From Geosiphon pyriformis (Eukaryota; Glomeromycota; Glomeromycetes; Archaeosporales; Geosiphonaceae): 64,000 nt of DNA. This document shows positions 16,488 through 54,116 of the stretch, piece by piece. Location: assembly GCA_016748015.1 (NCBI GenBank), contig JAAOMT010000302.1:62001-126000 (forward strand). The letters are read 5' to 3'. The position numbers and the translations under genes were made by a program. Under the pieces are notes generated by a model that made no database searches, was not told the DNA's origin, and saw only the letters and a program-made list of their open reading frames with translations. Positions within the stretch are counted from its first letter, which is position 1. Every line of letters begins with the position of its first letter.

Positions 16488-18020
16488 ATGACCAACTTTA
16501 TTCAAAATGAAAGCCCTGATAATGAATATGAAGATGGTGCAATACCTATGGAAGGCATTATAATAAACGATGAACAAGAAAGTTTATCAAAAAAAAATTT
16601 GAGTATCGATATTAAACACCCCCATATAAGGAACACCCAGGAAAACTTTAGTTCATCCTCAATCTCAATTGGAGCTGAAAATTATATTTTAAAGGAGCAA
16701 TTTCACTCCAGCTGGCCTCCAGGTAACTTCGGAGAGATTTTCACAAGTTTGAAAGTGGATGATAGAGAAATAGAAATTTCAATGGTTTATCTACAGATAT
16801 AATCGCTTAAAAAAAATTTATCTTTTCCAATGTGCTCTTATTCCCTCCTAGGCCCTCGATGCCTATGTCATCATCATCAATTTGCGATTAAAACTAAGCA
16901 GTCAAACTGCCATCATTTCAACAATCAATATAAAGACAATTTCAAAGAACGGTTTTACAAGGAACAAAACTTACTCAAGGAAAGTCAGATAAATTATCAG
17001 AAATTGCTTGAGCACTACAATCATGATAAAAACAAATGGGAAAATGAAGAAAATCAGTATCGTCAAATAATCGAAACACTTCAAATTAAACGTGAAGAAT
17101 TAAAAGCGGAGGCTATCCAATACCAATTAGCTCTTGGAAGCATCACTAACCTTCGCTGGGATGATGCTAACATGAATAACTCTGTTAATTTGAATAAAGA
17201 TATTGGAAAACTTCAAAGCTTGCTCCTTGAATTTACACAGCTGAAAGGAAAGGCCTATTCCATAAAGGAACTTGGAATGAATAACCTTTTTGAGCATTTT
17301 GGATCTCAAAGTGATTCGAAACACAAGCCAACTTGCAGGGCAGCCCTTCAACGTTTTGTAATCGAGACAATTCTTGAACAATTAGATAGATATCTTCTCG
17401 TAGGAAAAAATCTTCAAGATAATGATTTAATCGAACGTGACCTATTACAAAAATTTGGTGGCCTCGGTATGTCCCTCGAAAATTTCATGAAAATGCGTAA
17501 GGGAACAGGCAATTCGATAAACTTGATCTCAATTAAGCTGCGACAAGAAATTTTTGCAATATTAGGAAACCATGGTTTTGCCAATAAAGACAATCAATTT
17601 GTTGTGAATTTGAAATCGTCGCTGCTACGAGAGATGGAAAAATATCGAAAAATTGAGTCGCCTGATAAAAGCGTAGAACAAGAAGCTCGAGCTGTCGAAA
17701 TTATACTTGAGGTTGTGCGAATTCTCTATTTCCGAGTTCGAGCCCAAGAGCCGATCATTTCTTTACGCTGGTTTGACAACGGTGAACCTCTGAACAGGAA
17801 TATGATGGAATGGGCTTCAGACGGTGACGATCATGACAAAGTGGTTGATATTTGTGCCTTTCCAGTCATTGGTATAAATCTTGACCACCCCGAAATATGG
17901 CAGATTTACACAAAAGCAAAAGTTCAGATTTGTAAAATAAATGATGAACCGAGGAAAAAATCGAGCCGCTTTTTAGGCATTTTTAGTATGGCCTATTGGT
18001 ATTCACAAAAGAAATACTAA
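16488..18020 (+). CDS. P1: coiled-coil protein of an unrecognised family, 2 exons
   Basis: Exons 16488-16722 and 16852-18020 give 467 aa. The family is not recognised, but P1 is clearly paralogous to P2 and P3. Shared blocks are a charged coiled coil (roughly residues 105-175), then YQLALGSITNLRWDDAN with NNSVNLNKDIGKLQSLL, a helical middle, a segment SIKLRQEIFAILGNHGF, and a C-terminal block ICAFPVIGINLDHPE followed by a KAKV strand. P1 lacks the N-terminal helical domain of P2 and P3. Where that domain ends, P1 instead has a Cys/His-rich stretch CLCHHHQF...NCHH just after the splice junction, possibly metal-binding (inference). It is convergent with the Hsp70 gene H1, 430 bp away. The ATG at 16488 was chosen over 16461 because it starts the acidic N-terminus MTNFIQNESPDNEYED; the upstream one also fits the frame. 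Confidence 0.72.
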
Positions 18021-18449
18021 ATATCAAAATTTAAGTATAGCATGCCTTGCATTTTACATAAGGCTAATCAAATTTATCGTACCCTTTTATTTCTGATAGT
18101 AAAAAATAAAATAAGCTCTGATCTTTTCAATTCTTGAAGCATTATCCAAAAGTTGGGTGCGCTGCAGTTTTTTTTACCTACCCCGTTCTTTCAAATGATA
18201 CAAAATAAATTTATTAATCATCGCATTTTTTAAATTGTTTTTTCTCCACAAAATTTTGAAATAAAAGCCAATAAGATGTTAGCTTATAAAATTTAAAAAT
18301 ATATTATAAAATTAAATTGGAAGATATAAAACACTTTGCATGATCAGTAATTTTACAATATTTGATGGTTGGGATGAATGACCCCATCGAACGCATCGCT
18401 TCGTTATAAACAAAATAGATAGAACTGAACCACTTCTGGTGGAAGCTCA
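18021..18449. other. Convergent 3' region between P1 and H1
   Basis: A/T-rich; presumably holds both polyadenylation regions. No exon seen. Confidence 0.5.
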
Positions 18450-20778
18450 TTATTTCGAAAGTGAAACATGAGTTATCGTATCATTTTCAAAATCATCACG
18501 TATTTCGAAATGTTTCTCAACAATTTGGCCAGTCGTTATGTTGTGCGCTCTCGCTTTGATTTCCAAAGTGCCAAATGTTAAAGAAAATTCGACGGGACGA
18601 TCTTTTCCAAGATGAACATCTGGTAATTCCTTTTATCATATCAAAATCTCTCATTGAGTTCGGTTTTTAAAAGTATTACGGTCAAATAATTTTTAGAATA
18701 CTTACAACATCAAGTTTCCCTAATAATGTCATCCCGTCTTCATCGCAATACTTTGGATCATATTTATGAGTTGTGTAAATTTTATAAAGGACTTCAGTTT
18801 GGTGTGGAAACAATGGCTGTGTTGGGATTGAGAACTTTTGATCAACTTTTACTATTTTTCCACGGGAAGCTAAAGGTTGAAAAATTTTAATATATTTCTC
18901 TAAATATTTCCTTTCAGGTGGATGTTTATCCTGATCAAAATCTGCGGCGAGGTCACATCCGAAAGTTTTCCTTAGAACACGAGTTTGAATTACATTCATG
19001 TTCAACCCTATTATTTAAAAGCATTTTTTTTATTAAGGCAACGTTTAAAACAGAGACCTTCAATAATACTGACCATAAAGAACAGCACCGCGAACCACAC
19101 TAGTAATAGGGTTAGTAGGAACTGAAATCAATGGAACTATTTTGTCAAATTCTTGATGTAGGCGAAGTATTAGGTATTTGGATTCTCCGAATCCCCCGAC
19201 CACAAAGATGGCAGAGCATTTTTTATTTGCGTTTTTCAGTTGTTGGCGTACAAGCCGAAGTATTTTTCCAATGACCTTATCGAAGAATTCTTTGACGACA
19301 GCAAAATCTAACTTAATTAACCATTCAGCTTTCTCCATTTTTTTTAATGCATCGCCTTTGACATATTGCATAAGAACTGGACAAACTTCTTCAAGATCAA
19401 TTTCTTTGGTCTTCCAAGTCTTTGGATTACCATCAAAACGAAATTTAACTTCTGTGCAAAATTGCTGAACCAGATATTGCATTTGTGCGTAATGTTTTTC
19501 TTCTAATAGTCGAACGGCTTCAGCACCAACCTTCTGGATAAGATGTTTTTTAAATTCACGATCTATATAAGTTGAACCGCAAAAGTCACCCGAACTTTCG
19601 GTGACTTCATCTAAAGTATTATCATTTTGAAGGGTTCGCACGGTCAGATCAATTGTGCCCCCTCCACAATCGACTACCATATAAGTTGCTGTCGTGTACG
19701 AAAGGTAAAAAAGAACCATTGGAAACTTTTAAAGCTTTTTTAAAAACAGAAATAGCTTTATAATCATCTTACATCCAACGGAAAGGTTGTTCTCCTTTAA
19801 GGTATCAATACAATATATTGCTGCGGCTTCAGCTATTAATAAGGTATTTTGATTGATACTTTAAAATATTCCATATCAAAATCATTAAAAAAAAGCCACC
19901 TACGTTCTGTGGTAAACTCCAATTGATTAGAATCTAAGGATGTGATCAAATGAGCTTCATAGGCGCATTGCCTCATAACTGCTCGAGCAGTTTCCTCGTA
20001 TTCTGTCGGTAGTGCCAGTACTAGGAGAACATGTTTGTCAAAAAGCAATCCTGGCCATCTCAATGTAACCTTTTCTTTCACAAGCTTGAAAAAATTCAAA
20101 TTAATTAAACTTGAAAACGAGATGAATAATTGATAAATTATTTGAATTGAAACACTTTACTTTTCCCAATTCATGTAAATAATCCGTGATTGCCTTCTTA
20201 AAATCTAAACCGCTCGGCAATGATGGTTTGTCCTTATCCGCCATGTTTCCCAAACGAAGTTTAAATAATTCCACAGGCTTTGACAGACCATTTGATCGAG
20301 CACCTATTCCTTTCTTTGTCTCCTTCTCGGCCAAAGCCGGAAATCCCCATTTCAAAACGTTAAGACTATCATCGTACTGGAGTGCTGTATTAGTTTTAAA
20401 GCCACCTTTTATTCCGGGCCTTGAGTGAGAAACTAGTCAGCGACTATATTTAACTGCACCTATCTGTTGAGCAAGTTATATTATTGAGAGAACACTCTAC
20501 CAATCATCATTTGTTTCCAATCTGTTTGGATTAGCTGTATGTGCAAAAGCAAACCCTAAAAAAAAATAGAAAATTTATTATCTTTCTTTGGAATATTTCC
20601 AATGCTTGATGGAAAAATTTTATTTACCCGAAAATGTTGTACCAAAGTCTAATTTTGAGGGGAGTGTAAAAAAATTTAATCAGTATCTGGCTAAAAAAAA
20701 CTTATAAACAGGAATTTTTTTCTTTGTATACTTGCCAATAGCGACCACAACACGGATATCGCGGTTTGAAAACGACAT
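18450..20778 (-). CDS. H1: HSPA12-like Hsp70 family protein, 9 exons
   Basis: Exons: complement of 20736-20778, 20628-20648, 20501-20555, 20161-20419, 19904-20084, 19773-19832, 19074-19688, 18706-19007 and 18450-18629; 571 aa. It has the actin/Hsp70 ATPase fold: phosphate-1 DFGTTFSGFAF, phosphate-2 VVDCGGGTIDLT, FCGSTYIDREF and the adenosine motif VVGGFGESKYL. Known: the HSPA12 branch keeps the ATPase but lacks a standard substrate-binding domain. It is the most divergent of the four copies. It lacks the intron after the IPAEW region (reading LPTEY here) and the one in the late ATPase part, but has another intron after VLYG. Intron 1 starts GCAAGT, apparently a GC-AG intron. The C-terminus is longer and acidic and lacks the YQT-W ending of H2-H4. 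Confidence 0.87.
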
Positions 20779-23436
20779 GATTCAAGCTTGAAAGTTCAGT
20801 GGGATTTTTCCAAACAAGAAGGAAGAACGCTTTAAATTAAGTTTTATTTGGTTCGCGGTAGTTGCGAGCATCTATTATTTTGCTTATTCAATCAATTAAA
20901 TGTAGTATAATAACAATGAATACCAAAGGTTATCACCGAATAGGCTCTTATTGTTTTTTCTTTAAATTTACTAGTGGAAAAATAATGAACTTTGATAACT
21001 CCATTCATGTACGGTGAACCTAATCTTGTGGAGTATATTTAGGATTTGCTGATAAATTCAAAATAATTCATCAATTAGATGTAATCTAATAATTGGTTTC
21101 ATTGAAAAAAGACATTCATCTCCGAAACTTTCAACAATAGGTCCCTCAATTCGAAATAGTTGTCAATGGGTTAAGAGTTATATGTTGTAAATACCGAAAA
21201 TGGGTTTGAAATCAAGATTCTTAATTTTCTCATTAATAAAAGCTAAATGTTGAATCCACAAGGAATGAAATTGATTCCTGGCCCAACCAACTTTATAAAC
21301 TTATGTTTTAAAATATTTAAAATAAATATTGGAATGATTTTCATAAATAATTTATAGAATTCATATTAATTTAGCAGCATCATATTTCTTGATCGAATTT
21401 TAAATTGGACAATTTAGAAATTTTTTCATTGTTGTCTTTCTTTAATTTGATAATCTAGCAGGAATTCAATTATTCCTTTAGAGAATTATTCTGTGTTAAT
21501 TTATTTTTTATAAACCAAGAATTTGCCACATTTTAATTCTTCCTTGAATATGGGTAGCAATTATATTTGAACTTAATGCCCAAATAATGAGACGCAAGAG
21601 TTTTACTATAAATAATATCGGTTCCCTTTGACGATACCATTAAAATCTACCCATCTAATGTACGAAAAATACATATAATTTTGGAAAATGTTTTTTCACA
21701 GACTGAAGATTAAGAAAGTTAGGTGAGAAATCTGATTTGCAAAGATATCAAAGGAGACTATTAAGGAATGTATGGCAGAGTTCATAAACAAGGATATTCC
21801 TCATGAGAACAAATAAAAACATGAAAAACTCCCAAAAAAGGTTTTTTAATGAAAATGAACACTTACCAGACATATGTCTTTACATATTCGAACTAACCAC
21901 AGATGAATATAATGATGTTTTTTAATAAATTACAAAATAGAATACTTATTATGCTTCTCTTTTTCTTGCTTTGATAAATTTAGTTTTACAATACCATTTT
22001 TTGTTAAGTAATTAATCACATCCTTTGTATTTTTCATTTTATAAATGATCAAAAAAGAAAATTGTCTTTTTTGTCAAATTTTCATTGCATTTATTCTATT
22101 ATATTTCATCATTTCTTTTTTCACATTGATATTAATATTTATATCATCTGTTATTATAATAAAATTGTTGTTTATAACTTTTTATATGAATTACCATTTT
22201 TAAAAATTTTTCAATGTTTATATTAAATCTATATAATGTTAATTACAAAGTTATAAATACTTTATAATTGCATTTTTTTTTGTTTTTATATTTAAATCTA
22301 ATTTATTTTAATAGAATCAATTTTGCTCTTATTTTAAATTAAATATTTGTATCATAATAAATTATATTTTAAAAAAGTTTAACAAACTTTAAAAAAACAT
22401 TGGTTAATTTTAAAAAAAAATTTAAACTGCAAAAAATGTATTTCGTAATATAAATTTACTATAAGATTAATATAATAATTAATAATTAATAATTATCTAA
22501 AAAAAAAATACAATTGACTTTTAAAATTTATTCAATTTAATAAATATATAATTTTGTATTTATTGCATATACACATGTAAATATATATCTGTATCTATTC
22601 TTAAATTAATTATTTTATCCAAACTATTAATGAATATTTCAAAAAAAAATCAAAAAAATAAATATTAGCAAAATGGCTAATACACAACAAATAAATTTTT
22701 TTAGGTTACAGATATAATATTGTCACATTTATAAATTTCAGTTTTTGGGTGAAAAACTAATGAATTAATGTTATTAATTATACAAAGTAACTTGTTATGC
22801 AAAACTTACTTTTACTTTTTTATATTGAGCTTTTCATTACCAAAAGATCTTTTATGTTTGCGACATATGTTGTTCCAAGAGAATTTTTCATTTTGCAAAT
22901 GACTGTAATTGTGTTTTCATAAAAAAGTTCGGTAAGACAACTTCAATGAAGTGCAAAACCAAACCACGAAAATATCATAATGAATTTCAGAATTCTTGAT
23001 GTCTTTAATATTTCTAATATGCGTTCAAATATAAAATATATTAGTTGACTCTGATAATTTTACATTTATGCTTCGACCAAGGTTTTTTGCAAGACCTGTT
23101 GATATAAAATGGACAATTAAAGAATACAAAAGCAATTATCGATTTAAGGACTGAATTATCGATAAAAAGATAGATTAAATTTCCAATTCTGTATTTTACA
23201 AGTCGCGAAAAGACTCAGTGAATAAATCTTTTTTTTTTCAGACAAGTTTTTTGTATGAATAAGTAGTTACTATCTAAAAATCCCAACATTTTAATCTTGA
23301 CAAACCATTGGTAATTTATTTTACTACTGAAAAGTTCCAATTGATCGTGCACTGAATAGCCAACCTTCATCAGATCACTGAAATCCCTACTTCCTGATCT
23401 ATTTATTTACTGAGTCATAGCGTACCAACACTTTTT
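20779..23436. other. Gene-free region between H1 and H2
   Basis: Contains the H1 promoter at its left end and an A/T desert from about 21900 to 22750. A short dispersed repeat lies at 22935-23000. No exon seen. Confidence 0.5.
22935..23000 (-). repeat. Copy of a ~70 bp dispersed repeat
   Basis: The reverse complement reads ATCAAGAATTCTGAAATTC, then a variable base or two, then ATGATATTTT and TGGTTTGGTTTTGCA. It matches 41815-41880 with few changes. No function is known. Confidence 0.5.
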
Positions 23437-25826
23437 CTAACTGATAAAGTTATTCATTGTCCAATTAGTTTGGTATACACGGTCAGTGAGTTTATTTCGT
23501 GCTTTTGCTTTCAAATTGTATTTTCCAAATGTGAGGGAAAATTCAATTGGTCGATTAATACCAAGGTTTGTATCGGGTAAATCTGTTATGAATGAAGCGA
23601 AAATGCAAACTTTAAAAACTCTATAAGATAACCAGGGCAAAAAAGAAATCAATACCAGACAAACCTATGCGCAATGAGCCTAAATGAAACACGTTCCGCT
23701 GTTTACAGTGCTTTGCGTATCGCATAGGCGTGTAATATACTTTGAAAATAGCCGAATCTTGGTTGTGAAACGCAGGTTTAAATTCTTTTGAAAATTCTTT
23801 ATTCACTTCGATTTGCGTCCCACGTTCCGCCAATGTTTCAAATTTGAATATTCGGCCATCTGGTTCTCTACAAGAAAAAATAACAAACGTTGTAATGAAA
23901 ATTGAGAAATAATTTCTCTATAACTATTTCAAACCTTGCCCGTTCCGGATCCCCAGGGAGGAATTCTGAAAGTACTTCTATCCCATATGTCCACTTTAAG
24001 GTACGCGTACGTACAGTTTCCATATTTAACCCATATGCTACAGCTCCCTTAACTACTGCAGCCATGGGTTGTCGAGGTTCGGCAATAACTGGGATATGAT
24101 TTTGAAACTCTTCGCGAATACGTTTACGAAGATATTTTGATTCAGAAAAACCTCCAACGAGAAACATTGCCAAAGGCTTTTTCTGGGTAGCATCTGTTAT
24201 TTGATCAGAAATCAGTTTGATAATTTTGTTAATTACAGGATCAAACATTTCTTTGATTGAATCGAAATCTAGCTCCATCGTCCAATCCTCGGCTATCATC
24301 TCCTTGCTCGTGTTTTCATCCACACAATCGAGTAAAATCGGACAGTATTGTTCAATATCAAGTTCAATATTTCTGAAGGTAGAACGAACCCCATCAAATA
24401 AATGTTTTACACGAGGACAGAAAAACTTTTGGACCAAGTATTGAAGCTGCCCATAATTTTCTGTTTTTACTTTTTCCATTGCAGACCAGCCCAACCGCTT
24501 TCCGAGAAATTTAAGAAATTCCCGGTCGACAAACGTAGAACCGCAAAGGTCACCGGTTCGGACTGTAATTTCGTCAATTTTTTTGTCATCTTTTAGCAAT
24601 CGCGTTGTTAAATCCACTGTACCACCACCACAATCTACTACCAAAAAAGAGTCTAGAAAGAGAAGGGTCAGATTAGGGTCAAGATAAAAACGATTTGCGG
24701 GCAATCAAAATTGATACAACCTCCAGGCTTTAAGTTATGCTCATCAACCACTTTTAAACAGTAAATTGCGGCCGCTTCCGCTAAAAAATTTATAAATTTA
24801 TGAACGAACTAAAATCTGAAAAGATCTTTTTATCGAAATTGCAAAAAGCATACGTTCACTCGTGAATTCCAATTTTTCGGATTCAATAGAATCAATTATT
24901 CCAGCCGAATAGGCACATTCTCGCATTGTATTCTTAGCATTATCGTTCCTTGGAAAAAATTAAAAGATAAGAAATTCAAATGAGATTTCTGTAAAGATTC
25001 TGCAACCCAAGACAATCTCTTTACCATTCCGCTGGTATCGTTGTTACATATAAAACTTGAGAGAAAGACATATCAGGCCATGTAGTTTCTATCCTTTCTT
25101 GAATGACCTAAAGTCCAATAGAGATAATTATGTCCAAAAGCATTTACACAAACCTTAAAAATTCAAACTAATATTATTTCATACCTGATTCATTTCTCGG
25201 AGGTAATCTATTATGGGCTTTTTAAATTCCATTTTAGGAGGCAAGAAAGGTTTTGTATCTTTAGGCATATTAGAGAGATGTAATTTAAACATCTCTACAA
25301 AATGTTGCTTTTTGCCTCGCTTGGTACGTTTTTTCCTAGCTGGGGTATCAACGAGGGCAGGTTCGCCCCATGCTGAAAGCGTGAGTTCATCGTCCTCACT
25401 GACATTATACCGGATGGCAGTATTGGTTTTTGGGAGTCCTTCGCGCCCTGGCCTTCAAACAAAAATTTAGGTAACGATTAAAGAAAACCTGGAAATTTTC
25501 AAAATTTGTCCACTTTTATTATTTAATAAACGAACCAAGTCCCATTTGTTTCAATTTCCCCTGTGGCTTTGTGCGCGTAAGCAAAACCACCTGAAATAAA
25601 TTTGATAAAAAAGATAAATTTTACAAATCGCAATTTGATTAAGATATTTGTAGCAAATTAAAAAATTTAATTACTAAATGTGGTTCCGAAATCTAAAAAT
25701 ATTTAAGACGCAGTTAATGACTTTGTTATTAAGTATAATAAATTTCTCAATTACTTTGAACTTACCAATGGCTACTACTGCCCGAATCTCATCAATGGCT
25801 ACTGCCCGAATCTCATCAAAATTCAT
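23437..25826 (-). CDS. H2: HSPA12-like Hsp70 family protein, 10 exons
   Basis: Exons: complement of 25766-25826, 25675-25692, 25536-25590, 25185-25452, 25025-25107, 24854-24948, 24721-24780, 23935-24652, 23665-23867 and 23437-23582; 568 aa. Motifs: DFGTTFSGFAYAH, VVDCGGGTVDLTTR, DLCGSTFVDREF, FLVGGFSESKYLR, EPRQPMAAVVKGAVAYGL, and the C-terminal block LPDTNLGINRPIEFSLTFG ending YQTNWTMNNF. Exons of 18, 55, 83, 95, 60, 203 and 146 nt have exactly the same sizes in H3 and H4. Exon 1 carries a 24-nt tandem duplication, so DEIRAVAI is followed by a second DEIRAV. The gene is divergent from P2, with 321 bp between the two ATGs, so the pair is probably co-regulated (inference). Confidence 0.93.
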
Positions 25827-26147
25827 TATAATAGAAGAAATGGTTTGAATAAAGTGTAAAAGAGTCTACAGCAAGCAAAGGGATTTGGGGGATTAACGTA
25901 ATCAATAGAAATTAATGTTTAGCGTTATAATGAGTTTCAATTCATCAGTTTACTTGGCTGGAATGAATTTAAATCTGGCTTGACAATCGATAAAACTGGT
26001 AAAACAGGAGAATAAAACAAAGAAAACCTGAATATGTAATAAAGTGCAACATTAGCCGAAGTTTTGGGTATGTAATTATTACTAATTAGGATAGATGTAC
26101 GCGGTTGTAAGCTGGAGAAAAGTTTACCCATAGATTATAAGTTAACA
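25827..26147. promoter_or_regulatory. Divergent promoter of H2 and P2
   Basis: The 321 bp between opposed start codons must hold both promoters and both 5' leaders. By eye no clear three-unit heat-shock element (alternating GAA/TTC blocks) was found. Confidence 0.5.
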
Positions 26148-28175
26148 ATGAATGACACCAATAAAAATTGCCAACATCTCCGTATTGTGCAAATGAACGA
26201 CTCTTTCAATCAAGACGTTCAAGCAACCAGTAAATTTACACCAAATATTGAAGAAATAGGAAAGAATTTTTATTTTTCAAATAGTCAATTTGAACTGACA
26301 TATGATCCATCCATTGGCTCGGGTCCTAATTTGCTAAATCAAAATACTCAGTCGCCCAATATGCATCATAATGCTTTATTGGAGTGGGATTGTCTCTTTG
26401 GGGTTGCATCTCAGATGCGATGGCAAAACTTTGCTCTCCTGTTTGTTGTCATTTGGGATGCAGGACCTAGGAATCAAAAGACAGATGAACTCAAAGGGGA
26501 AGTTGAAAATCTTAAATTAGGGATCACTTTCCTAGAAGAACAAGGTGGGGCGGAAGCGGAGCAATGTCAAGAATTCATAAAAATGTTAGATAGCTATGTA
26601 AAATATTGGGAAAAAAATGAATCTAGATATCGTGAGGAATATACACAATTACTCAAAAGGGATCGTTCTTTCCTCGAGGGAAGATCAAATCTCCTTGAAA
26701 AGTTCCATGGCTTGGACGAATCGCACAGCAAAAATTTACGAATGATTTGTCAAATGCGAATCAAATCCTTCGCTAAGTTTGCGTTATATATAAATCAATA
26801 TTTACATGATCATCCAGCAAGAAAAAAGTTTCAATCAGAAAATAATGTGGCTCAATCTTCTTTCAACGATCAAAGGCAAATTTTTAATGAGAGACCATTC
26901 ACCAAGGTTTTGGGAGAATCTTCTGAGGAATCATTCACCAAAGTTTTGGGAAAACTTGCGACAGCGCGCGAAGAAATTAAAAAGGAACCAGGTGAATTGA
27001 AAGCAGAAAAAGGGGAACAAAAAAGTAAAGAGATTTTGACTTCCAAATCGGTATCCACTTTCTTGTCAGATAAAGAAAGAATTGAAGAACTTGAGAAACA
27101 AGTTAAATCCCTTAACCAAGAAGCGGGAAAATATCAGGCCGCGTTAGGAAGAGCTATAAATGTTCGTTGCAGCGATGACGACCCTAATAGCTCTGTGAAG
27201 CTCAACAATGAATTTGACGATATTCATTACTCAATTGAAGCATTCGTTAAAATAAAGGGAAGTAAGATGAAACTTAGAGACAGAGCAGCAAGATCATTGT
27301 TGGAGAATTATAAATCCTTAGCCTCAACTTCCGTAAATGCGGGCTATAAACTTGCCGTTCAAGCCGCTCTAGAGAGAAGAACTTTAGAGACAATAATGAA
27401 TATTGCAGAAAGATACCTTAATACAGAAATTATGTCGTCCCCTGAAACAAAGGTAGTGACAAGAAATAAGGCCTTAATGACTGGAAATAATGATAAAGAT
27501 TCAAATAATGATTTTACAGGTGAGTCACGGGAATGGAATAATATTCATCTTGGTAGTAAATTGTTTACTGAAATCTGAAACTCATCCAATTATATTATGG
27601 ATAAATTTTCAAAAGAAATTGAAAAAATTGTCATCTCATCCATGAAAACATTAGTTGAAAACATGGAGCTTTTCGAAAAATATCGGCGTGGTTCAGACCA
27701 CATAACACCCATATCACGAATTAAAATCTCTCAACAAGTATATGCTACGCTAGGTTCTCGAGCATTTAATAATTCAAAGCATCCGCTCATCCAAGAAATC
27801 GAGCATGAGCTTCTCACACTTATGGCTAATCATCGAGAAGTACTCGACGAAATCAGGAAAAAAGAGCTAGACGAAATGGCAGCTCACATCGGCATCGATA
27901 CCATCAAGATTTTTCAATTCAGGTTGAAAACTCAATCTCCAATTCCTGAGTACAGATTTTTCGAAGCAGGCGAGCATATTGATCCAATTGCTATGCAAGG
28001 GACTTGGGATGGCGATATTGAGGAATATGAAATCGATATCTGTATGTTCCCTGTTATTGGGGTCAATCTCGACGACATTCAAGATCGGCGAGTTTTCAAT
28101 AAAGCGAGAGTTATTGTAAGGCCTAAAGCGAATAATACACAAAAGCCAAACAATATCTGGAATTCAAAAAAATAA
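26148..28175 (+). CDS. P2: coiled-coil protein of the unrecognised family, with an in-frame stop or short intron
   Basis: One frame is open from 26148 to 28175 except for a single TGA at 27576-27578. A 93-nt intron (27520-27612; donor GTGAGT, acceptor TTTTCAAAAG) would remove it without changing frame and give 644 aa. That is preferred, but a true premature stop cannot be excluded. Domains: an N-terminal helical domain including LLEWDCLFGVASQMRW and LLFVVIWDAG (~78-110), shared with P3; a long charged coiled coil (~250-330) containing a near-repeated FTKVLG motif; the family signature YQAALGRAINVRC...DDDPNSSVKL; and a C-terminal block ISRIKISQQVYATLGSRAF and ICMFPVIGVNLDD followed by KARVIVRPK. 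No enzyme motif was recognised. It is divergent from H2 and convergent with H3. Confidence 0.75.
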
Positions 28176-28584
28176 TTAATGCTATAATAGCAGAGGGTGT
28201 GTCTTTCCAAAATATAAATATATATTTTATATATCAAAGATTAAAAACTGTCTAGTTAACTGTTGGTTCAAAGTATTTTATAGGAAATAAAAAACCTTAT
28301 TTCTAGTTATCAAACGTTTTCGTTAGCGGGTGGTTAAAAATAGTTCTTGGAAATCATGTATTTACATTAAAATTGAAGAACTTTCATCCCACAAGCGTTA
28401 CCAACAATTTTATTCATTCAATGTTCTAAGACAAGTCAGTACGTTTAAATATTAAAAATATCTAATGTCTTTGAAATCAAAAAAAGGGAGTTTGTTTGGT
28501 AACCAAGTTTTACTGTGGATGATGCTTAAAAGCTCAGGTCTTAATCAAAATTTATCCTTTTAATATCAATTTTCAGAAATTCCT
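28176..28584. other. Convergent 3' region between P2 and H3
   Basis: About 410 bp, A/T-rich, no exon seen; 3' ends of both genes. Confidence 0.5.
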
Positions 28585-30972
28585 TTATTGCGTGAAATTT
28601 TGTAATTTCCAGGATGTTTGATATACTTGTCCAGTAGTCTTATTACGTGCTGTTGCTTTGAGTTCCATTTTTCCAAAGGTTAATCCGAACTCGATGGGCC
28701 TATTTATTCCTAAATGTACATCAGGAAGATCTGAATAATTGGAAATTTAAACTTTATTTAATAATATTATTCAAAAACGTTGTATTGATAACAATGTATA
28801 CAAGTATGATTTACCGATTCTCAAATCACCCAAAAATCTAACACCTGCGTCGTCACAGAATCGTACCCAGTTTCTTTTCGTGTAGTATACTTTAAAAAGA
28901 ATTGAGGTTTGATTGGCATAAACTGGTTTAAATTCGCCTCTGAATTCTCTGTTGACATCCACTGGAGTTCGTCGCTCAGCAAGACGATTGAAGCGGTATA
29001 TTTTACCATCGGGAGTTCTGAGCAACAAAATTATGGATAGAGTTTATCGGGCTGTCCCAAGAAAAGAGAACTCTATTTTTATTACGCCTACCGTCGTTTT
29101 TTAGGATCCACATTTAATTGCCAAGTTGACAAAATTTCGATTCCAAAGCTCCATTTCAACACTCGAGTCTTAATAGTGTCCATATTTAAGCCATATGCTA
29201 CGGCACCTTTAACGACAGCAGCCATTGGTTGTCGAGGTTCAGCAATGATAGGGACCTGATTTATAAATTCCTCTTTGATTCTATTTCGAAGGTATTTAGA
29301 CTCAGAAAATCCACCAACAAGAAACATAGCTGAAATCTTTTGTGTTGGAGCGGCAGCTTTGAGTTGATCTGTAATCAATCGAATAATTCTTTTGATTACA
29401 GGATCAAACATAAGTTTAACAGAGTCAAAATCCAGTTCAATCAACCAATCTTCTTCTTCCATTTTTTCCCTAGCATCTCCCGTCACATACTTTAAAAGAG
29501 CTGGGCACCAATGTTCAATATCTACGTCGATATTTTTGTATGAAGAGGCGTCACCCTCAAATAAGAATTTGACCCGAGGACAAAAAAATTTCTGAATGAG
29601 ATATTGGAGGTTTCCATAATGCTCTGTTTTGACTCTTTCCATCGCTACTTCTCCCAAGTTCTTGCCCAACCATTTCATAAATTCTCGATCGACAAATGTT
29701 GAACCGCAGAGATCACCAGTCCGTTCTGTGATTTCATCTAATTTACCATCTGGACGAAGTTGCCGTGTAGTTAAATCGACAGTTCCACCACCACAGTCAA
29801 CAACAAGGAAAGACTCTAAAAGAAAATTTCAATTTGCACATTGTATACATCTTCAAAAGAACTGAAAATCAATCAATATTGACACAAAACATACCTCCTG
29901 CTTTGAGCTTATGTTCTTCAACTACTTTTAAACAATGCATTGCCGCAGCTTCAGCTGAAGATGAATTAAAAAATTTTACTCTAAATGTGAAAAGAAGTCT
30001 CAGACTAGTTGTGAAAACTGATATCACCTACGTTCACTTGTAAATTCGAGATTTTCAGAATCCAGAGTATCAATAATTTCAGACTCATAGGCACACCCCC
30101 GCATAATTCCTTTCGTATACTCTCTCCTTTTAAAATAGATTAAGAATATTAAATTCTGTGATAAATGGAAAAAGCAATCGAAAGGTGCAGTCATCTTCAC
30201 ACCATTCGGCCGGTATTGTCATTACGTATAAAACCTGCGATCTTTTCATGCCAGGCCAAGTTTTGTCAAGAGTGTCTTTTATCAACTGAAAATATCGAAT
30301 GAAAATATTTAAATAAAGGAAAGCATAAAAAATGAATTAAAAAAATCAATATGAATAAGACGTATTGACCTTATGCATTTCAAAAAGATAATCAGTAATA
30401 GGGCGTTTGAAATCCATGTTAGGTGGAAGGGGTGGTTTTGATTTTTTTGACATTTCTGTCAAATGCAATTTAAACAATTCCACAGTATATATCTTTTCAA
30501 CATCTTTGGATTTCTTTTTTTTTTCAGGAACGTCAACGAGGGCTGGTTCACCCCATGCTGTGACGACATAATCTTTATCATAACGAAGGGCAGTGTTGGT
30601 CTTGGGAAGACCTTCACGCCCAATCCTTAAAAAACAAAATTTGGTCGAATATTACCAAACTTCTATAATACAATATTTCAAATTCTGCATACCATCTATT
30701 ATTTGTCTCAATTTCCGAATTCACCTTGTGGGCAAATGCGAATCCGCCTATCAAACAATTCAATTTTTGGTTTATCACACATTATTCTCATAGTAACAGA
30801 CTTTAGAGGCCTCAGGTAATAAGCATCATTTTTACTCACTAAAAGTGGTGCCGAAGTCTAAAGATTTTATTATAAAAAGGAATGCTTAAAACAATTTTAT
30901 TGCCGCTATAATGCATTTCAGTAATGAATACTTACCGATACCAACCACTGCACGAATATCGTTATCAGACAT
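28585..30972 (-). CDS. H3: HSPA12-like Hsp70 family protein, 10 exons
   Basis: Exons: complement of 30936-30972, 30840-30857, 30693-30747, 30370-30625, 30203-30285, 30032-30126, 29895-29954, 29092-29815, 28815-29017 and 28585-28730; 558 aa. The N-terminus is MSDNDIRAVVGI. ATPase motifs: DFGTTFSGFAFAHK, VVDCGGGTVDLTTR, DLCGSTFVDREF and FLVGGFSESKYLR. The C-terminal block LPDVHLGINRPIEFGLTFG ends YQTSWKLQNF. All nucleotide-binding motifs are intact, so it is probably an active ATPase. It differs from H4 mainly in a Lys/Asp-rich insertion after ALVDVPEKKK. Divergent from P3 (393 bp between start codons) and convergent with P2. Confidence 0.94.
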
Positions 30973-31364
30973 ACTTTTATTCTGGGGAATGCCTATACTC
31001 CAGAAAATCACTCAATTTCTTTAAAAAAGAAATCAATCAAATCGAAATAAGAGCCTTTCACCCAAATATCCTCACAGTACATATTAAATTTAAATCCTAG
31101 CCAGCAAGCTTATTTAAAAAGGTTGTGCTATCCATTCCTTCCAAAAAAGATTAGCATGTTAAGTGTTACTGAGTTTTAGATCCTAAAGGATTCATTGTAT
31201 AACTAATGTGGGATCCCTTAAGGCGTACAAGGAAAAAGAATTTGAAAACAAGGACTAAATGAGGAATGAGGACAAGCCTCATTGTGGTATTGAGAATTTC
31301 ACCACGAGATCGTCAAAAGCTGTGGATTTTCTTTCGTTTTTTTGCGAGAAACTCGTATTTAAAA
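30973..31364. promoter_or_regulatory. Divergent promoter of H3 and P3
   Basis: 392 bp between the opposed start codons of H3 (30972) and P3 (31365). Same arrangement as H2/P2. No canonical heat-shock element was evident by eye. Confidence 0.5.
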
Positions 31365-33239
31365 ATGAGTTATCAGAGTGGAGTCGGTGGACATTATAAT
31401 CACCATTATAGTTATCAGTCCAGTTTTCCAAGATACGGTGGTTTAGGTTCTCAAAGAGGGACGGGAATAAATACAGAGGAATTGTTCGAGTTATTAGAAT
31501 GGATTGGAAATAGAACTCGTTGGACAAATTATGTTTATTTAATATTAATCGTTTGGGATACTGACAAGCACCAGAATTTTCGAACCAGTCCAAAATTTGA
31601 TATGGAGTATGAACAAGTTCTTGAATCTCTTCATGAACTACTGTCTGGTGACGGTGCGACTCGGCTACAATATAATCACGCTCTCCAGATTTTCGAAAAT
31701 TATCAGAAATTTTGGAAAAATAACGAAGATAATCTTAGGAAGCCATCTTTGGAATCAGCGTACCAACAAATTGGATTGTCGACAGACGCTAGCTATGAAG
31801 AAGGGGCTGTTCTTCGTGATCAATTACGTCGTTTAACTTTGGAACAACGTAAAAAAGTGCGCAATTTAATTATCAAAAGGATCCAATCTTATGCCTCTTT
31901 TGCCTGTTACCTGCAACACTTATCTCAAATGGGAAATACGAAGGAACAAGTTGAAGGTATTGCTTCGGTGGTCAGTTCAAAACTCAGCGTCAATCATTCA
32001 ACTGTTGAAAAAATAACAAAAACCAATCTTCATTCACCAAATGATCGAAATGATGTTGCCGAATTAAATAATCAGATTGCCGAACTTCAAAAAAGAAATA
32101 AAAAATTAAGCAATTCACTTGCAGAAGCAGATGAAAAGTTAGACACGGCTCAAGAACAAATGACGATTTTGAAAGAAGAGGCCTCTCATTACCAAGCTGC
32201 TCTCGGCAACGCTATTAGTGTTCGTTGGCGTGATAATGATCCTAACAATCCGGTGAATCTTGGCGAGGATATCGAGAAATTAATCCATTCGCTGGGCAAT
32301 TTTGCGAAAGTCAAAGGATCTAGTATCAAAATCATAGAAGACGCAGCTAGTCAACTCTTGGCCAATTATAAATGTCAGACTGAAATCACTGATAAACGAG
32401 GAGGTAAATTAGTACTGCACGCGGCATTACAACTCCTGATATTACAAACTATTTTGAACGGTTGCAGAAATTACTTAAACAAATCACCTCACAAAAATCA
32501 AGAAAATGACCAAGCTTCTAAATTATGTGATGCGACAGCTACACAAGAATTGTCGAATGAATGGGTAGACGCAAGCCATTCAGATAGCAGTGAGGAAGAT
32601 TCGGTAGACAGTTCAACAGGGCCACCGATAAAAAAGCAATCTTCCAAGACTATGGAAAATAATCTTGAAGTTGACATTATTACTACAACTGACGATTTAT
32701 TGGATTTGATGACTTGGTTTTCGAAAACTCGCAATGGTACTGATGATTTCACGCCGATAGCCTCGATAAAACTTCGACAGCTAGTTTATGCAGCCCTTGG
32801 TGCTCGTGGATTCAATGATATTAAGCATCCCCTTATTATGAATTTGGTGGGAAAGTTGATTGAAATAATGGATACGCATCGTGTAGTTGTGGGCGAACAA
32901 AAGAAGCAAGATATTAAAGCAGAGGCTATTGATTTAGTCCTTGATGTTATTCAATTGTTTTTCTTCCGTCTCAAGTCTCAACCAATAATTCCGGAATATC
33001 GATTCATTGGTCCCGGCCCTGATTTGAATTCTGAATTTATGGAGGGCAATTGGGAGGATATTAATCAGTCAGAAGTGGAAATATGCTATTTCCCGTTGAT
33101 TGGGATAAATCTCCAATCCAATGAACGTCGAGTCTTTACTAAAGCACGCGTTTTGGTGAGACCAAAAACTGAAAATTTAGAACCTTCGTCCGATTTAAAG
33201 GATTTGGTTGTTGAGAAAATTGCCGATGAGTTAAATTAG
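31365..33239 (+). CDS. P3: coiled-coil protein of the unrecognised family, single exon
   Basis: Intronless, 624 aa, and the best-preserved member of the family. The start at 31365 (MSYQSGVGGHYNHHY) is preferred to the in-frame 31266 ATG because the latter lies close to the divergent promoter and adds an Arg/Phe-rich stretch absent from the paralogues. Order: Gly/Tyr/His-rich tail; N-terminal helical domain with LFELLEWIGNRTRW and LILIVWDTD; coiled coil at about 230-280; signature YQAALGNAISVRWRD and DPNNPVNLGEDI; an acidic Ser-rich linker (SDSSEEDSVDSS); then IASIKLRQLVYAALGARGF; C-terminal block ICYFPLIGINL followed by FTKARVLVRPK. The linker replaces the position of the stop or intron in P2. 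No catalytic motif was recognised. Possibly a scaffold or cofactor of the adjacent Hsp70s (inference from gene order only). Confidence 0.8.
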   Translation: MSYQSGVGGHYNHHYSYQSSFPRYGGLGSQRGTGINTEELFELLEWIGNRTRWTNYVYLILIVWDTDKHQNFRTSPKFDMEYEQVLESLHELLSGDGATRLQYNHALQIFENYQKFWKNNEDNLRKPSLESAYQQIGLSTDASYEEGAVLRDQLRRLTLEQRKKVRNLIIKRIQSYASFACYLQHLSQMGNTKEQVEGIASVVSSKLSVNHSTVEKITKTNLHSPNDRNDVAELNNQIAELQKRNKKLSNSLAEADEKLDTAQEQMTILKEEASHYQAALGNAISVRWRDNDPNNPVNLGEDIEKLIHSLGNFAKVKGSSIKIIEDAASQLLANYKCQTEITDKRGGKLVLHAALQLLILQTILNGCRNYLNKSPHKNQENDQASKLCDATATQELSNEWVDASHSDSSEEDSVDSSTGPPIKKQSSKTMENNLEVDIITTTDDLLDLMTWFSKTRNGTDDFTPIASIKLRQLVYAALGARGFNDIKHPLIMNLVGKLIEIMDTHRVVVGEQKKQDIKAEAIDLVLDVIQLFFFRLKSQPIIPEYRFIGPGPDLNSEFMEGNWEDINQSEVEICYFPLIGINLQSNERRVFTKARVLVRPKTENLEPSSDLKDLVVEKIADELN

Positions 33240-33703
33240 TTATAAAATTTTCCATTGCTTGGTAATTTGTATCAATTTTTTATTATTTTGATATTTTGCC
33301 AGTAATAAATTTGGACCTTTCATTTTTATTTATAAATTAAAGCTTTGATGACTGCAAACTATTTTTCACAAGGTTAAATTTCAGTATGCCTCAAAATTTC
33401 TCTTGAGAATTACAAAGATGTAATTGCTCTACTCTTTTATTTCGGTAAAAGCTGCCGCATAAAGTTTTAGCTTCGTTATGTGAACAAAGCCGAATCAAAG
33501 CGAGATTATCTTTTGCAAAAGCTGATTTCTTTTGCGAGCCAAGAACGTATGACTGTCCCCGTGACAAATCAGGCTTATTAATGTTTGTTTCACAAGCACT
33601 TCTATCACAAATGTATAAAAAGAGTAAAAAGAATAAAGTGAATGATAGTAACACCAGCTCTTCCAGATCCAATTTCTTTTGAACTTAAAGACCAAACGAA
33701 ACT
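33240..33703. other. Intergenic region between P3 and ART
   Basis: About 460 bp. The minus-strand open frames here are low-complexity and not credible. Presumed P3 3' end and ART promoter. Confidence 0.45.
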
Positions 33704-34837
33704 ATGCACCTGCCAAGCTCAAATTCAGCGAGTCAAAATACAACTGAAAAAAAAGAAAATGTGATAGCAGTGAAACCTTGTGAAAGAATTTCAAGCTCTA
33801 AAAGTGAAGTAGAATGGGAATTAGAAACTGAAGAAGACAGCGAAAATTGTTCAAAAAGTTGGAATAGAGAATTTTCGAGTCAAGGCCTATATGAACGTGA
33901 TGAAACCAAATTAGATGATAAGAGTTGTCGCTGTGGCCTTTGTCAAAAAGGTAAGAAATATCAGCTTTTTAAAATTTTATTATTTCATATTTCAGCGGAT
34001 TCTTAAATCGTCTTATTTGGTCTAGGATTGAACCCTAGTACTCGCTCTGATTTCCGTACCCTGGAGAACCGTCTTTATTCAATAAAGCTGCTTCGTGAAG
34101 TTGCCTTATTTGCTGGGACACGTGATGTAACTGACAAGATTGTTGACCACTTTCATTCGACCTGGGAGAATCCTCTTCATATGGTATTAAATTTCCAAAT
34201 TGATCCTCGAATTTGTCATTAATCAAAAATAATGCTGAACTTTTTTAAGGGTCGACCTGTTGTAGAGACTATCTCGTTCATAAAATACTCACCCAAGATT
34301 GCCCAGAGATTTGACGAATGTTTGTCTGAATTTACGCTTATTGCTGATGATCCTAATGTGAAGCCATTCTGGCGTGGGACTCGTGTTGAGTGTGAATATG
34401 ATCAAGAAAGCTCATGCAACCCCAATTCAGTACTTTTTTGTCGTTCATGTCAGTCGATATTTCGAGATCAGGAAGGTGACAATAGGTGAGTACAGCAATA
34501 ATTCTCGAAAATTCTATTTTTACTTTGAGATTTATTCATTCTGTTTAAATTATCATGTAGCCATGATAAAAGGATATACTTTTCAACAAATTCTTCACAT
34601 TGTTATTCGACAGTAGAATCTAGTTCTAAAAAATTTAAAATACAGCTTTGTTTTGCCGCTCTTGGAAAATCCCATACATTTAATCCTTTGGTGGATACCA
34701 ATGAAGAACTTCGGGAAGCTCCATATCCCTGCCATTCTGTCGTTCTCCAGAAAAAGAATTTTGAAGAAATTATTTTGTATCGTTCAGACTCTTTTATTCC
34801 ATTTGCTTATGTCACGTATCGGATTGAGGATTGGTAA
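33704..34837 (+). CDS. PARP-catalytic-like ADP-ribosyltransferase, 4 exons, His of the triad replaced by Arg
   Basis: Exons 33704-33950, 34026-34183, 34250-34485 and 34561-34837 join in frame to 305 aa. The C-terminal ~130 residues resemble the PARP catalytic fold. FWRGTR (175-180) occupies the place of the usual hGT motif. RIYFSTNSSHCYS (218-230) matches the GIYF-x-SS-YS block with Tyr220. IQLCFAALGKSHT matches the strand after it, and FEEIILYRSD (281-290) matches the E-x-[IV]-[VL]-Y motif with Glu283. The first triad residue is therefore Arg177 instead of His; in PARPs that His positions NAD+, so activity is uncertain. A CRSC pair and C-x-C-x2-C near residues 79-82 may bind metal. The N-terminus is acidic and Ser-rich. 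It lies between P3 and H4 on the same strand. Confidence 0.62.
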
Positions 34838-35254
34838 TATTTTGTCGCTATTAGTTTGAAGTACATTCTCTAAATCTTAGCGATTTCTACATTAAATTTC
34901 TCATAAAGGGTTTCGGTTATTATTCTCATTTATAGTATATATAGTTACTACTTTAAAAGATTCCAAATTTTGCTTGTATGTCGGATGTTTTTTATCGGAT
35001 GTTTTTTATCATTTTCCGAAGTAAGCGAAACAGGTTTTTGATGCATAGAACATGAGAATGTTTAGGCTATGGAATTTTTTTTTTCCGGTGAATGAGATTT
35101 CTTTTCAGAAGAGTTCTCATGCACTACGGCAAATGATCAAAATTCGTAATATAACAACAATTCCAAGTACACATATATTCACAATTAATTTAAATTTCTT
35201 GAAATTCGCAGCATTATTTTTATATTCGAATTCAGCAAAAATTGTAAATCTGAA
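34838..35254. other. Intergenic region between ART and H4
   Basis: No exon seen. A direct repeat of a 15-mer (TCGGATGTTTTTTAT, twice) lies near 34980-35010. Presumed ART 3' end and H4 promoter. Confidence 0.45.
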
Positions 35255-37627
35255 ATGAATGCTGATGATATTCGAGCGGTGGTTGCGATTGGTAAGGCCC
35301 AAAAGCGTTGTATATTTTGAGCGATGATTAATGATAACCAAGTCATTTTTCTTTGAAAAATTTTAGATTTTGGAACCACATTTAGTGAGTATAAACATTC
35401 CTTATATAAGTTGAATTTATAATTGAATATTAGGTAGAAACTTTGAATATAATATAGAATCTTAATTTGATATTCAGGCGGCTTTGCTTATGCTCATAAA
35501 GCTAACCGTGAAATTGAAACTAACTGCCAATGGTAAATAATATTGAATCAAAATTTCAAAAGTTCCAAATTCATTATTTAATAAGTTTTTACGGATTATT
35601 CATTGGAATCGTTTCACATAAAGGCCCGGCAATCAGGGTACATTAAAAACAAACACAGCTTTACGATACGATCAAGACTCAAATTTGATAGCATGGGGTG
35701 AAGCTGCACTCATTCAAACCCCGGAGAAGAAGAAAAAGACAAAAATTGAATATACGATCGAATTATTCAAGTTACATTTAACCGAAATGGAAAACAAGCC
35801 TTATTTACCTGCTGGAATGAATTACAAAAAACCTATATGTGATTACTTGAAATCAATGTATAAAGTACGAACTTTTTTCTTTCAGTTACCAGAGTTTACC
35901 GAATTATTCTGCTGCATAATCAATTTCACTCATCTGATTAATTTTAATGAAGTTAATTCAAGAAACGTTAGAAAAAACATGGCCAGGATTGCAAATTTCA
36001 CAAGTCATGTATGTGATGACAATTCCAGCTGAATGGTCGGTACCTTCTTTATTTAATGATTTTACTTGTAAAATTTACTTGAATTAATAAGCTTCAATTT
36101 TTTTGAGGCGAGAGAATACCAAAGCTATAATGAGAGAATGCGCCCATGCTGCGGGAATTATAGAACAAGTTGATTCTAAGAAATTGGAATTTACTAGTGA
36201 ACGTTCGTATATAGTTGAATTTAACTTTTTTCTCTATTCTTTGATCATCTCGCAATTTTAAAGTGAATTTAAATTTATAGCCGAAGCAGCCGCGGTACAT
36301 TGTCTAAATGTGGTCAAAGAGCACAGCTTGAAGCTTGGAGGTATGTATATTTTAATTTCAACACAGATTTCGCTTAAAATTATTAACATGCATCCTTTGT
36401 AGATGCGTTTCTTGTTGTTGACTGTGGTGGTGGGACAGTTGATTTAACCACAAGAACATTAAATGCTGAGCAGCGGTTAGGAGAAATAACCGAACGAACT
36501 GGAGATTTATGTGGTTCTACATTCATCGATCGTGAATTTCTCAAATATCTTGGCCGAAAAATAGGATTCTCAGCTCTGGAAAAAGTTAAAAAAAATCACT
36601 ATGGTCAACTACAGTATCTTATTCAAAAGTTCTTTTGCCCAAGAGTGAAATTCATTTTTGACGGAAATCCAGAAAATTTTAAACCGATTGAATTAGATCT
36701 CGAACACTATTGCCCTACTGTAGTGAAATATGTGGTCGGAGACCAGAAAGACGCAATGGAGAAAGATGATTGGGTGATCGAACTAGATTTTGATTCAGTC
36801 AAAGCAATGTTTGATCCTGTCGTCACCAAAGTTATTAAATTAATAACAGGACAGTTGAAAGCTGCTTCATCTATCGTATCTCCTTCGGCTATGTTCTTGG
36901 TCGGTGGTTTTTCTGAATCAAAATACTTACGACGTCGAATAAAGGAAACATTTGGTGATCAAGTTCCAATTATCGCTGAACCTCGACAACCAATATCTGC
37001 GGTCGTAAAAGGAGCGGTTGCGTATGGACTCGATATGAACTTGATAGAAACGCGCATATTGAAATGGTGTTTTGGAATTAAAGTTCTTGTCGAATGGAAT
37101 CCAGAACTAGATAGTTTGGACAGAAGGTATTTACAAACATTTTTCTTTTCATATAAGCCTTTGATGATAAAATTAGCCTATTAAATATTAAAATATTATG
37201 TAAAGAACGCCAGAAGGCCTGGTAAATCGTTTTCAACATTTGGCTGAACGGATGGACCAAGTACAAGTAGATAAAGAATTTTCCGCTGAATTTAAACCTG
37301 TCTATCAAGAGCAAACATCAGCAAGTTTTAAAGTGTATTATACTTCTGATAAAACTGCACGATATTGTGACCAGTTGGATGTATTTTATTTGGGAAAACT
37401 CCAAATAGGTAAATACTCTTTGATTCGAAAAACTCCCAATTTACTTTCTAAGTTTCTGTTGAAAACTTGATCTCCTGACAGATTTACCAGATGTTCATCT
37501 CGGCATTAATCGACCCATTCAATTTGCGCTGAATTTTGGCAAAATGGAACTAAAAGCAACTGCACAAAATAAAACAACTGGCCAAATATATCAGACATCT
37601 TGGTTCATGGACAATTTTGCAAACTAA
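35255..37627 (+). CDS. H4: HSPA12-like Hsp70 family protein, 10 exons
   Basis: Exons 35255-35291, 35367-35384, 35478-35532, 35624-35864, 35953-36035, 36108-36202, 36281-36340, 36403-37126, 37206-37408 and 37482-37627; 553 aa. The N-terminus is MNADDIRAVVAI. Motifs: DFGTTFSGFAYAHK, WGEAALIQTP, TIPAEW, EPEAAAVHCL, VVDCGGGTVDLTTR, DLCGSTFIDREF, FLVGGFSESKYLR, EPRQPISAVVKGAVAYGL, and the C-terminal block LPDVHLGINRPIQFALNFG ending YQTSWFMDNF. The exon pattern is the same as in H2 and H3. It is the only Hsp70 of the cluster on the plus strand and the only one without an adjacent P gene in divergent or convergent position; the ART gene lies directly upstream. Probably a cytosolic ATP-dependent chaperone-like protein of the HSPA12 branch. 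Confidence 0.94.
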
Positions 37628-53720: not shown

Positions 53721-54116
53721 GTCAAAGCAACCGAATGATGTGTGGATAGCTAAGTTTTGAAATATATCAAATAGGTCTGGAAAATCATTTCTGCTCGTTT
53801 TTTCTATCATATCCTAGGTTCTTAAATATATTTCTTCTTTCAAGCTCTTCAAAATGAAGAATATTCATTCAACAATAGAGATTTAGTTCTTGAAATTAAT
53901 AAGGTAACAATCAACAGCATTTTGCATTGAAATTATGACTTAGAGAGTTTTTGGTTGGAGGAAAAAATAGAAACTAACTATCGTTGTAACGGGAAATTTA
54001 TAGGTCTCTAGGATATGATCAGCAATGCTCCATCACTTATTTAAACAGGTTTGTGAATTATCGCATATGAGAAAATCAACTTTTAACTTTGACACAGTCA
54101 AATTGCCAAATTGAAA

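Follow-up and report, generated by a model that had tools for sequence, protein, structure and literature searches.

GrpE, Bag and Hsp110 are among the exchange factors that serve canonical Hsp70 (DnaK) proteins. Of the relatives of Hsp70, the HSPA12 type is one of the least well understood, both client finding and nucleotide exchange being unsettled for it. HSPA12A and HSPA12B are described as the most diverged human Hsp70 group, and their relatives are placed in vertebrates only, among the genomes covered in that account (PMC2266713). Expansion of the Hsp70 class in AM fungi has already been published. No report of the H-P gene pairing described here was found in the literature searched, a body of text in which subscription journals are largely absent.

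The window (the whole stretch of DNA analysed, 64,000 nucleotides) was found to carry four divergent Hsp70-type genes (H1 to H4), together with three members of a single orphan family (P1 to P3), at 16488..37627 (Table 1). All P and H genes named in a preliminary description of this DNA were present, with the order and strands that it gave (P1> <H1 <H2 P2> <H3 P3> ART> H4>). Its grouping of the genes into two families was also borne out, P3 being homologous to P2 (E 1e-79) and P1 (E 2e-22) with tblastn, and the ATPase exons of H1 to H4 being homologous and 41-68% identical, as was its report of two divergent pairs (start codons H2 25826 and P2 26148, 322 bp; H3 30972 and P3 31266, 294 bp) and two convergent pairs (P1/H1 and P2/H3, separated by approximately 0.4 kb). 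Among the 1,130 ORFs of the window, 70 were related to the P and H loci read, all of them inside 16803-37624 and belonging to P, H and ART genes, with short chance-like matches to loci L063 and L068 being disregarded.

Table 1. Coordinates and supporting evidence for features of the H-P cluster in the window.
Feature	Position	Strand	Evidence or remark
P1, orphan family gene	16488..18020	+	first exon may begin at 16488; ORF 16830-18020 holds conserved core; tblastn to P2/P3
H1, Hsp70-type multi-exon gene	18453..20778 (ends approximate)	-	ATPase exon 19060-19719; homology to H2-H4 and H elsewhere
H2, Hsp70-type multi-exon gene	23437..25826	-	ATPase exon 23937-24650; start codon 25826
Intergenic stretch between divergent H2 and P2, 321 bp, candidate two-way promoter	25827..26147	.	
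P2, orphan family gene	26148..28175	+	likely 96-nt intron 27520-27615 containing in-frame TGA
H3, Hsp70-type gene, about ten exons	28585..30972	-	ATPase exon 29091-29828; Hsp70 profile matches of hand-joined reading
Intergenic stretch between divergent H3 and P3, 293 bp	30973..31265	.	
P3, orphan family member with a single ORF, 657 aa	31266..33239	+	coiled coil ~residues 266-300; conserved core ~292-640
ART, relative of PARP-type gene	33704..34834	+	presumably several exons; one other genome copy found
H4, Hsp70-type multi-exon gene	35255..37627	+	ATPase exon 36405-37127

H3 and H4 could be traced through successive exons, starting at the first phosphate motif and reaching the C-terminus, while the exons of H1 and H2 were traced in part, the first exon of H1 being MSFSNRDIRVVVAIG at 20778. 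A splice donor and acceptor, read by eye, span the stop at 16800 in P1. As the TGA of P2 lies inside an in-frame GTGAGT...AG stretch of 96 nt, P2 would most simply be a single gene with two exons and an intronic TGA.

A genome-wide search identified thirteen H genes, a fragment at C342:130.3k (C342 being the contig of the window) being left out of this count. DCGGGT and VGGF were invariant in all ten aligned; H11 to H13, in which the ATPase exon is split, were for that reason kept out of both the alignment and the H tree. FGTT[FY]S was present in H1 to H6 and H13, with H7 carrying DFGTTCS and H8 carrying DFGVTFS. By these motifs, which we take to be phosphate 1, phosphate 2 and adenosine, the H proteins are assigned to the Hsp70/actin-fold ATPases; the HSPA12 label is presumptive, being given from motif likeness. 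The hand-joined reading of H3 matched Hsp70 profiles at E values below 0.001, namely the HscA (8e-8) and DnaK (7.6e-6) models, in both cases below those models' cut-offs, and PF00012 (8.3e-4), at 18.1 bits and thus short of the curated 20.6. None of the thirteen H genes was recovered in a genome search with PF00012 at E 0.001, and the C-terminal end of H was unmatched by the Hsp70 profiles searched here. For the ATPase exon of H, a single weak relative of viral origin was found. An H4-exon match at C387:170.7k (E 3e-4) was dropped as a further H because it sits in the first exon of an ART copy.

The P family was found to have twelve loci in the genome, eleven from earlier queries and P12 with a P4 query, and further, more distant members may exist. 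Its hallmark is a conserved C-terminal core of approximately 300 residues. The name 'coiled-coil family' used in the preliminary description suits P3, for which 6 of 200 shuffles reached the heptad score, and is not borne out for the family as a whole (36 to 187 of 200 for the other eight members scored), the score having taken in nine members with P2 and P12 outside. P7 and P8 differ in the copy number of a heptad-like repeat. Against Pfam, no cut-off was reached by P1, P3 or P2 (in two pieces), and the same was found for six pieces. A profile scan with nine members gave a best E of 9e-4, to a mitotic protein family, and no co-chaperone among the best 25 of 41 weak families; P1 to P3 gave no match over cut-off to GrpE, Bag, J-domain or Hsp110 family profiles. 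Six short peptide patterns, a weak search made for P3 only, identified no relatives in viral or prokaryotic contigs. AlphaFold2 models of P3 (with P1 and P2 only) and of the P3 core had an unusably low mean pLDDT of 36-37.

The preliminary description had named P-H linkage elsewhere no better than chance as one finding that would count against it. Within the window's own genome, six of the twelve P loci were found to have an H gene within 5 kb, on three contigs, compared with a mean of 0.012 under random placement. When clusters were shifted as rigid blocks, of which three of eight P blocks are linked, 0 of 100,000 trials reached three. On these whole-genome figures, the neighbourhood of H and P lies beyond chance in this one genome. 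The divergent layout was recurrent, with five close pairs identified, two in the window (H2/P2 and H3/P3) and three outside, namely H8/P4 on C387 (509 bp), H7/P8 on C366 (496 bp) and H9/P7 on C366 (399 bp). P6 and H5 on C387 are also divergent, approximately 18 kb apart; the interval holds 16 kb of DNA at 18-21% G+C and an ORF that is a member of a repeat (150 of 150 scored matched, among 3,728 first-look candidates). This looks like a fourth divergent pair outside the window, separated by repeat-bearing DNA. No H gene occurs within 5 kb of the other six P loci (P5, P6 and P9 to P12), nor within 25 kb of five of these, and six of the thirteen H genes (H5, H6 and H10 to H13) have no P within 5 kb, H11 to H13 lying on short contigs without any P. 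P1 and H1 are convergent and therefore share no promoter. No heat-shock elements were found between divergent genes in five stretches, H2/P2 included, where 0.78 were expected from shuffles (the H9/P7 stretch including approximately 90 bases of H9). The 10-mers common to the intergenic stretches were AT-rich and were not accepted as motifs.

P and H distances were found to agree best when true neighbours were matched (r 0.934, a value reached in 1 of 720 matchings; by rank, Spearman 0.893, 2 of 720), with agreement also with one copy of the C366 pair removed (0.894, 1 of 120) and with those five pairs plus P6-H5 (0.86, 2 of 720). This mirror test uses five or six pairs, of which two are a recent joint copy and three come from one cluster, with P10 (decayed) and P12 (a late find) left out of it and of the trees. 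The repeated adjacency of the two families and their divergence in step suggest, short of proof, that they operate as matched pairs. A shifted pairing in C342 (P2-H3, P3-H4) still gave 0.835 (4 of 120), and the test therefore leaves partner assignment within that cluster unsettled. The genes had also been described as co-amplified, which applies to one of three young duplications (P7-H9 / P8-H7); the other two took one gene (P4/P5; H10 beside H7/H9). P5 and H10 are single-gene copies with no obvious break in the parts read.

It is possible, though on balance unlikely, that H and P were simply neighbours once, that the block was copied by segmental duplication and that short spacing holds them together, making contact or a common pathway unnecessary. 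C366 holds the pair in two copies, one inverted relative to the other (P8< H7> ... <H9 P7>), with dS of approximately 0.12 for both genes, and matched trees arise without contact because linked genes are copied jointly. ART, the only other common gene seen, was found in two copies, one in the window and one on C387 near P6, as expected from an old block copy, and its presence at both hints at such a duplication. One exon of the C387 copy matched PF00644, the catalytic profile of PARP-type ADP-ribosyltransferases (33.1 bits, cut-off 26.7, E 5e-8), while the window copy, homologous to it at 41-57%, gave no match to PF00644 in pieces or joined. However, no common flanking gene besides ART was identified in the stretches read, which are parts of the neighbourhoods, and each family also duplicates alone. 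Moreover, between-pair distances, the C366 copies aside, are 0.5-1.3 for H and 1.4-2.2 for P, and the adjacency is therefore old.

A recognition module, in which a variable P would act as sensor or adaptor, with H as its ATPase switch and ART as effector, in self/non-self or partner recognition, is improbable. P diverges faster than H, its N-terminal part is present in some members and absent in others, the repeat number differs between P7 and P8 as noted above, and a PARP-type gene family occurs at two P loci, all as such a module might show. However, whole-gene dN/dS of the young copies was 0.43-0.53, and neither of the two ART copies found adjoins the C366 pairs or that at C387:12k; a recognition or allorecognition role was called unsupported in the preliminary description and is so still. 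A GrpE-like exchange factor of H (long helix, helical bundle and beta part) is a very improbable identity for P, since the helix and strand order of the P3 models and a GrpE match at E 0.84, confined to the coiled coil, are offset by P cores that alone give no GrpE match and by models too poor for fold comparison.

The reading favoured over these, in which our confidence is evenly balanced, takes H as an HSPA12-like, divergent member of the Hsp70/actin-fold ATPases and P as its dedicated partner. Such a partnership, proposed in the preliminary description with P as a putative co-chaperone, exchange factor or client receptor, draws support from linkage well beyond chance in the same genome and from the neighbour-matched distances, while the six unlinked P loci, the duplications of single genes in both families and the matched trees to be expected from joint copying by itself speak against it. 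The typical unit would be an H and a P gene in divergent orientation, their start codons 0.3-0.5 kb apart, sharing a promoter and presumably co-expressed; this pair would have been duplicated, often staying together as both proteins diverged. The C-terminal core of P would most likely bind H, its variable N-terminal part, which in P3 at any rate includes a coiled coil, may hold a client or cellular location, and H would contribute a nucleotide-driven shape change. More speculatively, and with distinctly low confidence, the pairs may constitute a previously undescribed two-protein machine of an HSPA12-type ATPase and a dedicated orphan adaptor, usually encoded head to head, with each pair having its own client or address and being joined occasionally by a PARP-type protein as third component. 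A P family travelling with HSPA12-type ATPases offers a short list of matched pairs and a handle on the cause of Hsp70-class gene expansion in these fungi.

Like HSPA12A and HSPA12B, H proteins keep few Hsp70 motifs and are encoded by genes rich in exons (12 coding ones according to PMC2266713, about ten in H3). Unlike them, H genes are fungal, number thirteen and often adjoin an orphan family, the likeness itself being one of motifs. An ATPase with a dedicated partner, by analogy with canonical Hsp70/DnaK, may serve as a working model; P differs from the canonical partners in being unmatched to them in the searches made, multi-copy and linked to its ATPase. The available part of the published work on Hsp70-class expansion in AM fungi makes no mention of a linked partner family, whereas here P is linked.

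The order and strands of the orphan family loci P1 to P3, which belong to one family, and of the divergent Hsp70-type ATPase genes H1 to H4 were found to agree with the preliminary description of 16.4-37.7 kb of the window (P1> <H1 <H2 P2> <H3 P3> ART> H4>, with ART being a relative of a PARP-type gene). P3 was identified as a single ORF of 657 residues, and P1 may possess a first exon starting at 16488. P2 holds one in-frame TGA inside a 96-nt stretch; as this stretch keeps the frame and is bounded by GTGAGT and AG, the simplest reading is that the TGA would sit in an intron. H3 was traced across some ten exons that run from MSDNDIRAVVGI and DFGTTFS through to a C-terminal stop. Comparison of the window ORFs (at least 28 residues, E 0.001) to the P and H loci and their flanks (about 1.5 kb at most loci, with 7-8 kb stretches at six places) showed that 70 of 1,130 have relatives there, all lying within 16803-37624 and each either belonging to P, H or ART or running antisense to one of these genes.

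Searches of the genome (124.7 Mb in 406 contigs, with the window at C342:62001-126000) using P3, P6, P11 and P4 as queries identified twelve P loci; P12 was detected by the P4 query alone, and for this reason the family may be larger. Thirteen H genes were identified, on which three H queries concurred, with one of these additionally showing a fragment at C342:130.3k. An H gene was found within 5 kb of six of the twelve P loci, against a random mean of 0.012. When clusters were moved as blocks, three of eight P blocks were linked at this limit, a number reached in none of 100,000 trials; at a limit of 25 kb, seven of the twelve loci and four of the eight blocks were linked to an H gene, again with 0/100,000 trials. 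In these nulls the genome was taken as one line, with each P locus placed at its midpoint and each H gene at the midpoint of its ATPase exon. The linkage of P and H first observed in the window is thus borne out, and is stronger across the genome than the window alone could tell.

Locations of the P loci and of other features (contig positions unless marked as window)
Feature	Contig	Position	Remark
P1-P3, P10	C342		P10 decayed
P4, P5, P6	C387
P7, P8	C366
P9	C360
P11, P12	C356
P4-like sequence	C342	545595-547684	decayed, many stops, possibly two fragments
H2-like gene fragment	C342	130245-130690	4.3 kb past window end; one exon piece, 68% identity to H2
ART	C342	window 33704-34834 (+)
ART copy	C387	170.9-171.9k
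PARP-domain gene	C387	172.6-174.0k	PF00644 E 1.6e-11; cysteine-rich ORFs upstream
APH-type phosphotransferase gene	C342	window 54105-55433
BTB protein gene	C342	window 58212-59129
Sel1-repeat gene	C342	window 9078-10181
Sel1-repeat gene	C342	window 52018-52752
ORFs with kinase-like end and TPR/Sel1-like repeats	C366	1133.4-1135.7k	few kb from H7; TPR_27 barely above its cut-off, kinase and Sel1 below theirs
Stretch like part of H ATPase exon	one IMG/VR viral contig	5001-5207	36% identity, E 4e-5 among candidates

Five pairs (H2/P2, H3/P3, H8/P4, H7/P8 and H9/P7) are divergently oriented, the two start codons being separated by 0.29-0.51 kb. P1 and H1 are convergent, and ART occupies part of the 4.5 kb that separate H4 from P3. 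P6 and H5 are divergent at a spacing of about 18 kb, an interval that includes 16 kb at 18-21% G+C, where a Pfam scan of four ORFs gave nothing above the cut-off; an ORF within it, with no Pfam match, belongs to a high-copy repeat with 3,728 first-look candidates, all 150 of those scored being matches. P6 and H5 are likely to be a formerly close pair separated by inserted repeats. Single-gene copies arise and persist: P5, a young copy of P4, has no H gene within 70 kb, H10, a relative of H7 and H9, has no P within 250 kb, the nearest P to H6 is 19 kb away, and H11 to H13, P9, P11 and P12 each lie on a contig that carries no partner. Adjacency of P and H is therefore common and not required.

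For neighbour pairs, maximum-likelihood distances between the P cores were compared with those between the H ATPase exons. For six pairs the correlation was 0.934, higher than for any other of the 720 matchings (Spearman 0.893, 2 of 720), and it was 0.894, the best of 120, once the duplicated pair on C366 was represented by a single copy; addition of P6-H5 to those five pairs gave 0.86 (2 of 720). A shifted pairing inside C342 (P2-H3, P3-H4) scored 0.835 (4 of 120), and for this reason the distances do not tell which neighbours pair there. In the trees, P2 and P3 form a group (support 88/88), as do H2 and H3 (86/87) inside a wider group that takes in H4 (100/98); P7 likewise groups with P8 (100/100) and H7 with H9 (90/86). 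Resolution is lacking at four of the seven inner branches in the P tree, and among paired members the end branches are longest for P1 and H1. Divergence was greater in P than in H. The dN/dS values (NG86) were 0.53 for P7/P8, 0.46 for P4/P5, 0.43 for H7/H9, 0.25 for H7/H10, 0.22 for H9/H10 and 0.12 for H3/H4 (dS 2.3); no sign of positive selection was found in whole-gene dN/dS of the copies compared. Joint copying accounts for much of the matched divergence, which shows that H and P have evolved together as one unit and does not show contact between their products. The best explanation is a dedicated partnership of P with the ATPase, as proposed in the preliminary description, which is about as likely as not; its main rival is the hitch-hiking of neighbours.

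One further copy of ART was identified, with 41-57% identity to the window ART over matched exons; it lies about 5 kb from P6, and both searches made gave two of two candidates. One exon of this copy matched PF00644 (PARP; 33.1 bits vs a cut-off of 26.7, E 5e-8), two others had no PF00644 match above the cut-off, and the window ART had no PARP profile match. The PARP-domain gene on C387 adjoins this copy and P6. That both ART copies sit at P loci points either to an ancient duplication of the block or to ART as a third functional component.

A conserved C-terminal core was found to align in nine P members, with motifs that include ALGNxxNVxWxDDDxNN, LRQQIxAxLG and VDICxFPxIG. P2-P5, P7 and P8 share an N-terminal part that was not detected in P1, P6, P9 or P11. 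No Pfam cut-off was reached by P1, P2 (in two pieces) or P3, nor by six pieces from five P members, the best E across nine members being 9e-4, and P3 and P7 gave nothing near the cut-off in NCBIfam. A profile search of PDB sequences matched mostly coiled-coil proteins (top match an SMC protein, E 3e-4). The heptad score of P3 was reached in 6 of 200 shuffles, which supports a predicted coiled coil in this member; it is not established for the family at large, since 36-187 of 200 shuffles matched the scores of the eight other members scored. P7 and P8 differ in their number of heptad-like repeats of about 24 residues. Structure models of P were too poor to use.

H had been labelled HSPA12-like, a likeness that we presume. 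A hand-joined reading of H3 matched the models HscA (E 8e-8), DnaK (E 7.6e-6) and PF00012 (E 8.3e-4, ending at residue 480 of 560), each under its curated cut-off, and a PF00012 search of the whole genome at E 0.001 listed none of the thirteen H genes. DCGGGT and VGGF were invariant across the ten ATPase exons aligned (10/13 H). Together, these profile matches, the genome-wide miss and the invariant motifs place H among the Hsp70/actin-fold ATPases, at a great distance from canonical Hsp70. According to a published survey (PMC2266713), HSPA12A/B is the most diverged human Hsp70 group, with HSPA12 relatives occurring in vertebrates only among the genomes of that survey.
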